From positions 1-49,410 of the forward strand of contig JAUSIS010000008.1 in NCBI GenBank assembly GCA_030647355.1: 49,410 nucleotides of DNA, given 5' to 3'. The translations under genes were made by a program, and so were the position numbers. Within the stretch, counting starts at the first letter, position 1; each line of letters opens with the position of its first letter. The stretch comes from a bacterium. Lineage in GTDB: Bacteria; Patescibacteriota; UBA1384; VFKW01. The notes below the pieces were generated by a model. That model was not told where the DNA came from, ran no database searches, and saw only the letters and a program-made list of their open reading frames with translations. Below are positions 1 to 4,754 of this stretch, in pieces.

Positions 1-1289
1 GCGGCTTGATTTAAGGATTTTACGAACTCACGAGCCGGTTCGAGCCAAGACAATCCTTTTGTCTCAAAGTCGGTTATTTTCTCGGAAAGCGAGAGCTTTT
101 GAGAAACTAGACTTTGTTTTTTGGCGGCGTATTCTTCTGTGGATAAAGCGTCGTCTAAATAGACATCAAGGAGTTTTACTAACTTTGTTTCTATGTTCGT
201 TAATTGTTCTTTCAGAACACTAACCTCGACTTGCGCGTCCTCTCGCGCTTTATCCTGCTCACTGTCCAACGCCACCAAAACTTTTTCGGTGTTTTGGCTC
301 GATAAAGAAACTTTTTGAAGATAAGAAGTGATTTGCTCGGTTAGGGCTTCTTCGCGGAGGTAATGCTTTTCTTGGCAAAGACCTTTCTTTTTCGTACATC
401 GGTAATAGTTATGACCTTTTTGTCTTTCGGCAGTTATTGAGCAACCACACGAAGCACATTTCAAGAGGCCAAGAAAAGCAAAATCACTTTTATGAGATTC
501 CTGCACTTTCCCTCGTTTACTCATCACTTCTTGGCAAGTATCAAAAAGTTTCTTTGAAATTAACGGCTCGTGTTGTCCCTCAAAAATTTCCCCTTTCCAT
601 TTCATCAAGCCAAGATAGAAAATATTTTGTAGATTTTTTTGGATATTGGCGATAACAAGCGGTTTGCCGAGATTACCGACCAAACCATTTTCTCTGCACC
701 AATTTGCGAGAGGGTGAAGCGTATATGCTCCGGTGGCATACATTTCGAACATCTTACGAACCTTTGGTGCTTTCTCACTATCAACATCAATCCCGCGCGT
801 TTTAGGGTTGTTTAGGTAGCCCACCGGAGCCCAGCCGGGCCAAGTGCCATTGCGTATTTTTTGGCGTAGCCCTCACTTCACATTCTCTCGCAAATTATCT
901 ACAAAATATTTTGATTGACCGAACGATATATTGAGCATAAATAATCCTTGTGGTGTGGGCTCAAACCAAAAAGTCGGAAATTTGAGGGCCTTAATCAAGC
1001 CGCGATCTACGAAATGGATTATTTTGCCACCATCAACGCTATTGCGAGCGAGGCGGTCGGGGTGCCAAGAAATAATCCCGTCTGCTTTTCCTCTCTCAAT
1101 CAATAACAACATTTCTGCGAATTTAATTCGCCCGGGTTCTTTTGCGGTTTTGGCTTCCTGAAAGGAAGCGACAATTTCAAGTTCTTCTTTGGCGGCATAC
1201 TCTTGCAACTCTACGAGTTGCGCCTCAATACTTAAAATCTGCCTATCGTCTTCTTCGGTGCTCTTGCGAGCGTACAGTATGTATTTCAT
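1..1289 (-). pseudogene. Large serine recombinase (resolvase N-terminal + recombinase + zinc ribbon + coiled coil), interrupted by an in-frame TGA at 873-875; runs off the left edge
   Basis: Minus-strand reading: MKYILYARKSTEEDDRQILSIEAQ...GIISWHPDRLARN...NLRENVK*GLRQKIRNGTWPGWAPVGYLNNPKTRGIDVDSEKAPKVRKMFEMYATGAYTLHPLANWC...LLKCASCGCSITAERQKGHNYYRCTKKK. The frame is unbroken either side of the TGA. Confidence 0.88.
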
Positions 1290-1450
1290 GTTATTTTTTA
1301 ATCATTTGATTTTTTAAGATAAACAGCGTTAGCTGTTTTTTATTTTGCGATGGTTGACGAAACCATTTGCCTATGTTATCATCTACCATTGAACTTCGGT
1401 TCAACGAAGTAGTACATTCCCAAACCAAAAACTGAAAGGAGGAATCCTCA

Positions 1451-1861
1451 ATGCGAACCAAAACGTCTCGCCTCGGGCAAGTCGTGCGGTTCTGCGTTGC
1501 AGGAGCCGCCGGCGTAATTGCCTACTACGTAGCGCTATACGGCCTTACGGAGTACCTCGGAGTCTGGTATGTCGCTTCTGCAGTGATTGGGTTCATCCTA
1601 AACACCGGACTGAACTTTACGCTCCAGAAATTCTGGACGTTCCAGAACAAGGAAACTCACATGGTCGGTCGTCAGCTCGTGCTGTATATCGCCATGACCG
1701 CTTCCTTCCTCATCGGCAACGCCGTCTTTCTGTACCTCATAGTGGAGCACCTGCACATGTGGTACATCGGAGCACAGATGATTCTCACTGTGGTCATTTC
1801 CATTTTGAGCTTCATCATCTCCGGCAAAATCTTCAAGTCAGAAAGCGGAGGTGTGAAATGA
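1451..1861 (+). CDS. GtrA family multi-TM membrane protein
   Basis: Four hydrophobic segments and the GtrA-like stretch NTGLNFTLQKFWTFQNKE; SD aaaggagg upstream of ATG. Confidence 0.8.
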   Translation: MRTKTSRLGQVVRFCVAGAAGVIAYYVALYGLTEYLGVWYVASAVIGFILNTGLNFTLQKFWTFQNKETHMVGRQLVLYIAMTASFLIGNAVFLYLIVEHLHMWYIGAQMILTVVISILSFIISGKIFKSESGGVK

Positions 1862-2331
1862 GTGACAGGGCGCGTGAACTTCTAGAGCTTCTGTACTTGC
1901 CGGAAGCTGTCTATCTCCAAGAGGTGGTGGACTACTCGGCGGAACGGAAGTCGGTAAGGGGGCGATTCTCTGTACCACGTTCCCACTCATACACTCGCCA
2001 GCCGATTGAATATGTGACGGCGGAGCAGTACGTCCGTTGTCTCTCGCAACTCTCGTATGTCGTAGTCGGCTTCCTGATTCAAGACAAAGTTGCCGACTTT
2101 GACTTCGCGGACCTCGAGACGTTCAAACGGCTTATGGTCGAGTGCAAGATGTGGTTCCGGCGGAGCGACCTCCGCTACCTCAAGAACATCACGAAAGGAA
2201 CGGACTTCGAGTTGTCGTTAACCTTGAAAGAGGTTCGGACGCTCCGAGTGTTCTCAATCTGTGTTCTCGAGATCAGCGGTGTCATCCGTGGCGAACTCGA
2301 GTTTGTTGCCCCACTCAATAACAAGGGGTAA
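1858..2331 (+). CDS. Hypothetical protein, possibly hotdog-fold (FcoT-like thioesterase)
   Basis: ATG overlaps the gtrA-like stop (ATGA), so the real start is 1858 rather than the track's 1759. Weak by-eye resemblance to the FcoT-like hotdog family. Confidence 0.6.
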   Translation: MSDRARELLELLYLPEAVYLQEVVDYSAERKSVRGRFSVPRSHSYTRQPIEYVTAEQYVRCLSQLSYVVVGFLIQDKVADFDFADLETFKRLMVECKMWFRRSDLRYLKNITKGTDFELSLTLKEVRTLRVFSICVLEISGVIRGELEFVAPLNNKG

Positions 2332-2333
2332 CC

Positions 2334-2371
2334 GGGCGCTTCTCCTCGTGGAGTCGCGCCCTTTTCTTTTT
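2334..2371 (+). terminator. Rho-independent terminator
   Basis: gggcgc ... gcgccc stem followed by ttttctttttat, just after the stop at 2331. Confidence 0.7.
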
Positions 2372-2405
2372 ATAAATTTCAAAGAACAAAGAATTTGTCG
2401 CCGAA

Positions 2406-2724
2406 ACTGAAATTTGCTAAAATTTCAGTAGTTCGCTCCCCGAATTCTTGGATTTATGCCGCCAGAGAAAAACTGGAAATTGTTAAGGTTCAAGAATTCG
2501 GGCGGGCGGGTTTTCTTCGGCCTGACGGCCGAAATAAATTCGAGCTATTTTCAAAATACTGCACAATTAAAGAATCTACCTCAATACCATGTAGGTAGAT
2601 TCTTTAATTGGGGACTCAAAGGGAAGTTGAGCGCATCCAGTGGATGTTTCGTCATTTTATATAGATCGGCGGAGCCGAATTCATCTTATGTCAGGCCGCC
2701 CTGATTCTCCGGCAAAGCCGGAGA
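2406..2724. repeat. Cluster of eight consecutive perfect inverted repeats in a non-coding region
   Basis: Arms: 2406-2415/2420-2429; 2439-2450/2491-2502; 2516-2522/2527-2533; 2564-2581/2593-2610 (18 bp); 2634-2638/2642-2646; 2666-2670/2674-2678; 2691-2695/2700-2704; 2706-2713/2717-2724. Confidence 0.85.
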
Positions 2725-2864
2725 CGGCCGACAAAGGCGAGCGAATTTAGCGAGTCTCTTCTTTAATTCCCTAGTTATCCACAGTCTCTAACTGGTTAGC
2801 CCTTATGTATATATCAAGATTAAGTATATTAATCATACCGACTTTACGGAAGGGGTGAACTTAG

Positions 2865-3338
2865 ATGTCGGATGACAAATTGCCAAACGGGGCATGGTGG
2901 GGAATTCCGAATCAGGTCCTATGCTTTAATGTTCAAAAGGTTCCGGCATCTTGGTTCATCAGTGAACTATATAAACTCAACAATCCAATGTTGATCCGGA
3001 GCAGAGTCGTACTCATTCAAACCGATGAGACTCGCTACGAGGGATTGAATCCTGCCGAAGTGACTTATATTGGAGGAGATCCTGAGCAAACAACCTTCTT
3101 CAGCATCAGAGTGGTCTGTATCGGAGTCCGGAAAAACCTTGAAAATCGGAAAAAGGTCATCATCTGCTACCGCTTTTCAAGCGATCCAGGGCTCGAACTT
3201 CTTCAAGAGAAGAGGCTTCGGGATAAGTTAGCTGAACTGCAAGATGCTTGTACTAAAAACGCGAAAATCGTGCCTCCATCCACCGCAACCTATGGCGTTC
3301 TTCCTGGCATCATCGAGCAGCTGGTAACTGATAACTAA
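2865..3338 (+). CDS. Hypothetical protein
   Basis: 157-aa ORF with upstream SD-like ggaaggggtg and a dedicated downstream terminator. Confidence 0.7.
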   Translation: MSDDKLPNGAWWGIPNQVLCFNVQKVPASWFISELYKLNNPMLIRSRVVLIQTDETRYEGLNPAEVTYIGGDPEQTTFFSIRVVCIGVRKNLENRKKVIICYRFSSDPGLELLQEKRLRDKLAELQDACTKNAKIVPPSTATYGVLPGIIEQLVTDN

Positions 3339-3347
3339 GTTCCCTAT

Positions 3348-3370
3348 GGGCCCTCGGGCCCTTATTTTTT
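3348..3370 (+). terminator. Rho-independent terminator
   Basis: gggccc-tc-gggccc followed by ttatttttt. Confidence 0.75.
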
Positions 3371-4754
3371 ATCTCAATTTATCAGGCAAATTGCCTTTAT
3401 ATCCTCGCTTAAAATCTTCCCAATTAGTCGTTTTCTTGCCCTCTAACTGCACTTCCCCCGGCACTAACTTTCCGTCTTCTAAGTGGGCTTTATGAATAAT
3501 CAATCTCTGCCCGCTCTCTTTGCTTTTTTCTTTTTTATCTTTAATTTTGAGCATTACAAATGCTCTTGGCCATGGATCATATGCCCGTATCTTCCTTTCT
3601 ATCATCCCTATCGGTTCATTCCAATTTATTTCTCCATCCTCTTTGCGGATAATTTTAGTATAAGTCGCTTTTACGTCATCTTGCGGTTCAGGCTGAACCC
3701 TATTGCCAAGATACAGAGGCAATGTTTTAATTAACAACTTTGCGCCCTCAATTGCCAATCGTGAACTTAGGGTTTCAGTCGTCGCATCCGACTCTAAAGC
3801 ATATTCCTTTTGCCAAATAATACCGCCCATATCCATTTTTTCATCCATTTTCATTATCGTAACACCGGTTTTTTCCTCTCCGGCTAATATTGCTCCTTGG
3901 ATAGGACTTGCCCCGCGATACTTTGGCAGGAGCGATGGATGGATATTAATTGCTCCATAACCCGGAATTCCTAATACTTTTTCACTTAGAATCTTTCCAT
4001 AAGCACAAACCACTATATAATCCGGGTCTAATTTTTCCACAATCTCTTCAATTTCGCTGTTAGTCTCCGGCTGGAATACTGGCAAACCAAATTCTTGAGC
4101 AATAGTCTTTATTACAGGGGACGCTATCGCCTGGTTTCTACCCGCTGGCTTATCGGTTTCTGTGATTACTCCAACTACATTTAGGTTGTTAGTAATTAAC
4201 GCCTCCAGAGTAGGTGCGGCAAATGCTGGTGTTCCCATAAAAACACATCTTAAATTATTATAGTGTTTCAAATTCTTTATATCTTTCACATGGTCGGTAA
4301 ACAAAACCCCACCTAAATGGTCAATTTCATGCTGAAGGACTCGAGCCAGCAAACCTTTTGCCCGAACTTTGATCGCTTTACCAGATATATCCTGGGCGGA
4401 AACATTAACTTCCTTTGGCCTTGTAACGTCAATTTCCAATCCCGGCAGAGATAGACATCCTTCAGGCATTGTACATTTCTCGCTGGAAAATTTAGTAACA
4501 ATCGGATTAATCAGAACTATTAATGGAAATGGTTTATCGCTATTTGTATCTTTTTCTCGTGGTATATACTCTAAAACGATCATCCTCTTTGATTCTCCGA
4601 TCTGCGGTGCTGCCAATCCTACCCCATCATACTGCCTCATTATACTCACCATTTGAGATGACAATTGTTGTAATTCAAAATCAAAAGAAGTTACTCTCTT
4701 TGCCTTTTCCCGAAGTATTTTTGCAGGGATTGTTATTATTTCTTTTGCTTTCAT
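3369..4754 (-). CDS. Fused peptide deformylase / methionyl-tRNA formyltransferase
   Basis: PDF motifs GVGLAAPQIG, EGCLSLP, LQHEIDHLGGVLF, then directly Fmt LRCVFMGTPAFAAPTLEAL...INIHPSLLPKYRGASPIQ in one 461-aa ORF. Confidence 0.92.
   Translation of the reverse strand: MKAKEIITIPAKILREKAKRVTSFDFELQQLSSQMVSIMRQYDGVGLAAPQIGESKRMIVLEYIPREKDTNSDKPFPLIVLINPIVTKFSSEKCTMPEGCLSLPGLEIDVTRPKEVNVSAQDISGKAIKVRAKGLLARVLQHEIDHLGGVLFTDHVKDIKNLKHYNNLRCVFMGTPAFAAPTLEALITNNLNVVGVITETDKPAGRNQAIASPVIKTIAQEFGLPVFQPETNSEIEEIVEKLDPDYIVVCAYGKILSEKVLGIPGYGAINIHPSLLPKYRGASPIQGAILAGEEKTGVTIMKMDEKMDMGGIIWQKEYALESDATTETLSSRLAIEGAKLLIKTLPLYLGNRVQPEPQDDVKATYTKIIRKEDGEINWNEPIGMIERKIRAYDPWPRAFVMLKIKDKKEKSKESGQRLIIHKAHLEDGKLVPGEVQLEGKKTTNWEDFKRGYKGNLPDKLR

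Follow-up and report, generated by a model that had tools for sequence, protein, structure and literature searches.

Genomic context of the hairpin-rich stretch

The analysed DNA, referred to as the window, is a stretch of 49,410 nt from a draft patescibacterial genome (contig JAUSIS010000008.1 of assembly GCA_030647355.1, here C3 of genome G000; other genomes, contigs and loci are given as G, C and L numbers). The features at its left end are listed in Table 1. The first 141 bases of the window overlap exactly with the reversed end of contig C10. Past this overlap, C10 carries site R (CATAGGAAATGTC...) and then tRNA-Leu(taa) at C10:308-391. The overlap therefore places site R and the tRNA gene directly beyond the C-terminus of the recombinase, a link that rests on 141 shared bases in a draft assembly. 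The resulting island is about 2.7 kb long and contains, in this order, tRNA-Leu(taa), R, the recombinase gene (antisense, with one TGA), the GtrA-family gene, the 157-aa gene, a terminator-like stem, a promoter-like hairpin and repeat A. It is followed by an 18-bp hairpin and repeat B.

Table 1 Features of the island and its right flank (window positions)
Feature	Position	Strand	Basis or remark
Serine recombinase gene	1..1289	-	PF00239 match; 3' end continues on C10 towards tRNA-Leu(taa)
Promoter-like TTGACG-17-TATCAT before cargo gene 1	1354-1382	+	Promoter scan
Cargo gene 1, GtrA-family membrane protein	1451..1861	+	PF04138, E=2.6e-17; GC 0.52
Cargo gene 2, 157 aa, no known family	1858..2331	+	GC 0.53
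Terminator-like stem GGGCGC...GCGCCC and T tract behind the cargo	2334..2372	+	Sequence
Promoter-like TTGTCG-17-TAAAAT (2395-2423) overlapping 10-bp hairpin 2406-2429	2395..2429	+	Promoter scan
12-bp inverted repeat	2439..2502		Right arm within A, left arm an inverted copy just upstream of A
Repeat A, island terminal repeat: GCCGCCAGAGAAAAACTGGAAATTGT... GC hairpin 2516-2533 ...TTCGAGCTATTTTCAAAATACTGCACA	2452..2565	+	Copies in own genome and in genomes of the phylum
18-bp perfect hairpin at the outer edge of the island	2564..2610		Same kind as behind B-bearing tRNA genes
Repeat B, tRNA-downstream, 3' part missing	2611..2757	+	91% identical copy behind tRNA-Glu; covariance model finds more
Repeat C, nested in B, with hairpins TCGGC-GGA-GCCGA and TCTCCGGC-AAA-GCCGGAGA	2647..2735	+	Genome copies

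The recombinase gene has an in-frame TGA near 871-873 (minus strand), at a position where relatives read through (NLRENVK*GLRQK). Compared with an intact homolog, it shows 74% identity over 294 aa, apart from this one TGA. The gene is probably dead, or the sequencing read is in error. The genes flanking the hairpin-rich stretch, described as GC-rich in an earlier note on this DNA, have a GC content of 52-53% on one side and 46% on the other, compared to 40% for the window. The promoter-like sites stem from a scan whose match count was not above that of shuffled sequences; the layout of the second one (TTG.CG, 17 nt, TGCTAA.AT) is also found ahead of A in other genera. Likewise, a GC stem with T tract resembling the one behind the cargo precedes A in G023, G046 and G003.

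Hairpin content and folding

The earlier note had counted eight stem-loops between positions 2406 and 2724, all of which are readable in the sequence. Exact long stem-loops are found at 2406-2429 (10 bp), 2439-2502 (12 bp), 2516-2533 (7 bp), 2564-2610 (18 bp, loop of 11) and 2706-2724 (8 bp), while the 5-bp stem-loops, e.g. CATCC-AGT-GGATG and TCGGC-GGA-GCCGA, have little weight if standing alone. If perfect arms of 7 bp or longer are counted (loops up to 45), 110 of the 319 bases lie in such arms; 300 dinucleotide shuffles average 13.8 (sd 14.0, maximum 60). The hairpin density was held to be unmatched in the window, and the 320-base segment indeed ranks first among 614 across it. Folding against shuffled controls, a check that had been proposed along with these claims, was likewise favourable for positions 2406-2757 (z = -7.1 on the plus and -8.3 on the minus strand; 0 of 100 shuffles equal or better). 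Since the stems are perfect DNA palindromes, folding on both strands is no argument for an RNA. Tested singly, two hairpins fold better than shuffles, the 18-bp one (z = -9.3) and the 10-bp one (z = -7.0); repeat A (z = -1.1) does not. Rather than forming a single feature, the region is composed of several adjacent repeat families, each with copies elsewhere. It straddles the right-hand insertion junction of the island near base 2564: to the left lies the terminal repeat A, and to the right lie the 18-bp hairpin and repeat B, a pair that is otherwise located directly behind tRNA genes of the same genome.

Distribution and composition of repeat A

Further copies of A in the own genome are located at C10:8070-8224, C10:9064-9147 (inverted), C5:309164-309343 and across the C12/C5 contig ends. 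A search for copies, also proposed earlier, retrieved A from 40 of 380 genomes of the phylum, representing 39 genera and including the own genome (sequence-only model trained on 12 copies, with rough E-values). A borders small cargo genes, frequently in the arrangement tRNA, R, recombinase, inverted A, cargo, A, and once in three tandem cassettes. It adjoins the recombinase in G003, G023, G050 and G184.

The first 27 bases of A equal recombinase codons 33-42, and a second motif, L, joins recombinase codons 45-52 to the 3' flank of the recombinase gene. The presence of recombinase sequence in both A and L suggests that the cassettes descended from recombinase units by deletion. A decayed piece of the recombinase gene was considered for A and dropped as a full explanation, as the sequence beyond the 27 bases is a conserved sequence of its own. 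The last bases of A were compared with the end of the local tRNA: they match exactly at tRNA-Leu (GCACCA/GCACCA) and tRNA-Ile (CCACCA/CCACCA), in 5 of 6 positions at tRNA-Gly (GCACCA/GCTCCA) and in 4 of 6 at tRNA-Asn (GAGCCA/GAGCTG). At the far border of the window island, this repeat of the tRNA end (GGCACCA vs TGCACA) is weaker than in other genera, several of which share 5-6 bases there. The edge itself, GCACA (2561-2565), runs into the hairpin starting at 2564, similar to GCA|CAAAT at tRNA-Leu(caa). Copies of A at L013, L014 and L012 differ by small hairpin inserts, e.g. CCCCACTTCGCCCTGTGGGCTACGAAGGGG, TTCTCGATAAACTCGAA and a REP-like block (TCGACTTCGCTCACCACAGG); it looks as though hairpins had been inserted into other hairpins.

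Sequence to the right of the junction

The 18-bp hairpin is not itself a repeat, and similar A/T-rich hairpins of 15-19 bp are located directly behind B-bearing tRNA genes. Only 2 of the 43 tRNAs of the genome, both with B, are immediately followed by a perfect hairpin of 12 bp or more; tRNA-Leu(taa) has no such hairpin. The hairpin is near-perfect at the Gly copy of B and comprises 17 bp at the tRNA-Lys remnant. Preceded by such a hairpin, B is found directly behind tRNA-Glu(ctc), tRNA-Leu(caa), tRNA-Gly(tcc) and the tRNA-Lys remnant. Repeat C is nested in B in the window and behind tRNA-Glu, and stands alone at C5:210786; the B copies at Gly, Leu and Lys lack it. Among 55 genomes of the class, B (covariance model) and C are found only in the own genome. 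Six matches of B in Rhodococcus, Actinoplanes and an Acidobacteria MAG, obtained by a pattern search of genome contigs, were taken as chance, as were 61 matches to CGCATCCAGTGGATG in viral contigs, which lack the B context.

Half of the hairpin-rich stretch, i.e. the 18-bp hairpin and B, is sequence downstream of a tRNA gene. B was at first considered as part of the recombinase island. For the own genome this was dropped, as four copies of B stand behind a tRNA (or remnant) and hairpin with no recombinase present. In G019 and G023, A is followed by a B-like piece and then by a duplicated tRNA 3' end. To fit the T-loop of tRNA-Leu(taa), B should begin with GGGAATCGAA, but in the window it begins with GGGACTCAAA and resembles the B behind tRNA-Leu(caa); B may therefore have been copied from there. 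The window copy lacks the 3' end that carries the tRNA duplication. Right behind the truncated B and before the def-fmt gene lies a GC-richer guest gene (2865-3338, plus strand; 157 aa, no family) with its own terminator, which may have removed the 3' end of B. In the adjacent def-fmt gene, peptide deformylase and methionyl-tRNA formyltransferase are apparently fused in one 461-aa frame (3369-4754, minus strand).

Recombinase family and docking at tRNA genes

An intact homolog (L266) has Resolvase, Recombinase and Zn-ribbon domains. The best NCBIfam resemblance of the recombinase is to CcrB/XisF/CcrA, far below the cut-off. Close and distant relatives are present in 26 of the 55 class genomes, with a maximum of eight in one genome. 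Of 25 loci that could be evaluated, 20, the own locus included, have a tRNA 3' end at 385-762 bp from aa 294 and antisense to the recombinase; the other five lack a tRNA within 900 bp (in one of them it lies at 908). The recombinase frame enters the antisense strand of the tRNA at L218 (2485-4026), L266 (1144-2675), L221 and others, so that the last codons are antisense tRNA sequence.

Complete islands are found in G184 (C1) and G003 (C17), with the order tRNA, R, recombinase, inverted R, inverted A, motif L, cargo gene, A. On C17 of G003, the two R copies form a perfect inverted repeat of 99 bp, which starts within the GCACCA of the tRNA. On another contig of G003 (C39), three L-gene-A cassettes are arranged in tandem; elsewhere, cassettes are mostly single. 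The cargo genes are small and varied and include membrane proteins, a methyltransferase-like gene and many genes without known family. The window island has neither inverted R nor inverted A nor motif L. It looks dead or dying, because these inner inverted copies are missing and the recombinase carries the TGA.

An empty site is provided by two sister species of one genus, a comparison that concerns a related island and not the window island itself. In G017, a 1,065-bp R-cargo-A unit immediately follows the ACCA of tRNA-Leu(caa) and ends with CTGCACCA before tRNA-Leu(tag). G027 has both tRNAs in the same order, separated by a short spacer only, without the unit. The comparison demonstrates insertion behind the tRNA. 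R of G017 starts like R of the window island (CATAGGAAAT..).

Origin of the hairpin-rich stretch

We interpret the hairpin run as the right border of a serine-recombinase island that is docked at tRNA-Leu(taa) and has hairpin-bearing terminal repeats, belonging to a family that also comprises cargo cassettes without a recombinase. The probability of this reading is estimated at roughly 75%. The anatomy is as follows: the CCA end of the tRNA borders on R, followed by a large serine recombinase pointing at the tRNA, the cargo and an A that ends in the last bases of the tRNA (here ..GCACA), behind which the old downstream sequence resumes. Docking at tRNA genes, R and A borders, cargo, units without recombinase and one empty site are read directly from the genomes. 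The recombinase would catalyse the reaction with A as its substrate. It would join the R/A sites to the CCA end of the tRNA gene, leaving the tRNA intact and placing all that lies between R and A behind it. Where one small gene has an inverted A ahead and an A behind but no recombinase, the unit would be a non-autonomous cassette, probably moved in trans, and the inverted pairs may allow inversion. To the right of the junction, the former tRNA-downstream sequence would consist of the A/T-rich hairpin, probably a terminator, and of B with C inserted.

Two options raised in the earlier note, a recombination site and a MITE-like palindrome island, pointed in this direction together with the nearby serine recombinase: A is the end of a serine-recombinase island and has copies in the own genome and 39 others. 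A palindrome island built from independent MITE- or REP-like repeats, with the recombinase as a coincidental neighbour, is unlikely. A, B and C are indeed separate dispersed repeats with different sets of copies, and B and C were found in only one of 55 genomes of the class. However, A adjoins the recombinase in four genomes and begins with codons of its gene, insertion behind the tRNA is precise, and the existence of canonical islands weakens the proposal further. The REP-like option fails in the strict sense, as the genome has no Y1/RAYT transposase: the Y1 (TnpA-REP) family PF01797 has no match there and was found in five control genomes.

A structured ncRNA that starts at the promoter-like site (2395-2423) and spans A and the hairpins would account for the strong folding, seen on both strands, and for the promoter-like site ahead of A in several genera. 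It is nevertheless very improbable, since no Rfam family matches the region above threshold, the folding of A by itself is at the level of shuffles, the alignment of 12 copies of A retains only three consensus pairs and both strands fold equally well. For B only, a role as RNA element of the tRNA transcript can be proposed: with a 5' end complementary to the T-loop of the preceding tRNA, it might control tRNA folding or processing. The ends of B match their own tRNA exactly at Leu, Glu and Lys and with one mismatch at Gly, and two-sided changes occur in 9 of 33 predicted pairs, in three sequences only. We regard this role as unlikely, given that there are only five copies, that no tRNA precedes B in the window and that the direct copy of the tRNA end at the 3' side fits an insertion scar equally well. 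That an ordinary group of transcription terminators was combined by chance is hardly credible. Terminator-like stems do end both guest genes (one at 3348-3361), and the 18-bp hairpin may be a tRNA terminator, but the arm content is far above all 300 shuffles and the conservation of A in 39 genera refutes a chance combination.

Comparison with known systems

Serine-recombinase elements, tRNA-docked cargo elements and integrons are each known. The SCCmec Ccr recombinases and the serine integrases of phages and ICEs share the Resolvase, Recombinase and Zn-ribbon domains and site-specific insertion with cargo. In contrast to these, the islands described here are 1-3 kb long, dock at the CCA ends of many different tRNAs and have long, hairpin-bearing inverted terminal repeats as well as one-gene cassettes without a recombinase. 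REP/BIME and MITE palindromes are similarly dispersed, palindromic and non-coding; the differences are the missing Y1/RAYT transposase and the fact that A borders cargo and recombinase. Tycheposons are tRNA-integrating cargo elements that were first described in Prochlorococcus. They have a tRNA at the border, cargo of variable content, the tyrosine recombinase xerD and a length of 4-200 kb (PMC10872708). The islands described here share the tRNA border, the cargo and the variable content, but have a serine instead of a tyrosine recombinase and a size of about 1-3 kb.

The likeness to integrons lies in a recombinase that points away from a row of one-gene cassettes with a hairpin-bearing site after each, three of them in tandem in G003. 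Differences are the serine recombinase in place of a tyrosine recombinase, the docking at tRNAs and the arrangement of sites as inverted pairs around each gene. A classical integron was rejected, as the enzyme adjacent to the array is a serine recombinase and not an IntI-type tyrosine recombinase. More tentatively, and with odds below even, the islands could form a phylum-wide, integron-like cassette system driven by a serine recombinase. The CCA ends of tRNAs would then serve as docking platforms, the recombinase would swap R/A hairpin sites, and cassettes of one gene each, with a promoter and terminator of their own, would accumulate in rows and be rearranged, inversion included.

Most of these bacteria are known only from draft metagenome genomes, and little is understood about their uptake of genes. 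The A-type island end is shared by dozens of related bacteria with small genomes, in combination with differing cargo. With its recognisable R and A borders, a compact tRNA-docked island offers a handle for spotting recently acquired genes across the phylum. Such an island further points to a counterpart of integron cassettes based on a serine recombinase, with an enzyme and sites open to laboratory test. Text searches among 5.39 million open-access papers yielded no description of tRNA-docked serine-recombinase cassettes in Patescibacteria/CPR.

Further observations at tRNA genes

The tRNA-Lys(UUU)-like remnant (L120, C10 of the own genome at about 27.5-27.9 kb) has its 5' half upstream and in opposite orientation to the 3' half. 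The 43 tRNAs found include no intact tRNA-Lys(UUU) and no tRNA-Phe, which may reflect a gap in the draft assembly or in the search. Duplicated tRNA 3' halves are located behind many tRNAs of the same genome, e.g. tRNA-Thr(tgt), tRNA-Gln(ctg), tRNA-Trp, tRNA-Ala(cgc) and tRNA-Gly(ccc), often joined through a short GTGAGGGA-like linker. These halves look like scars of older insertions into the T-loop.
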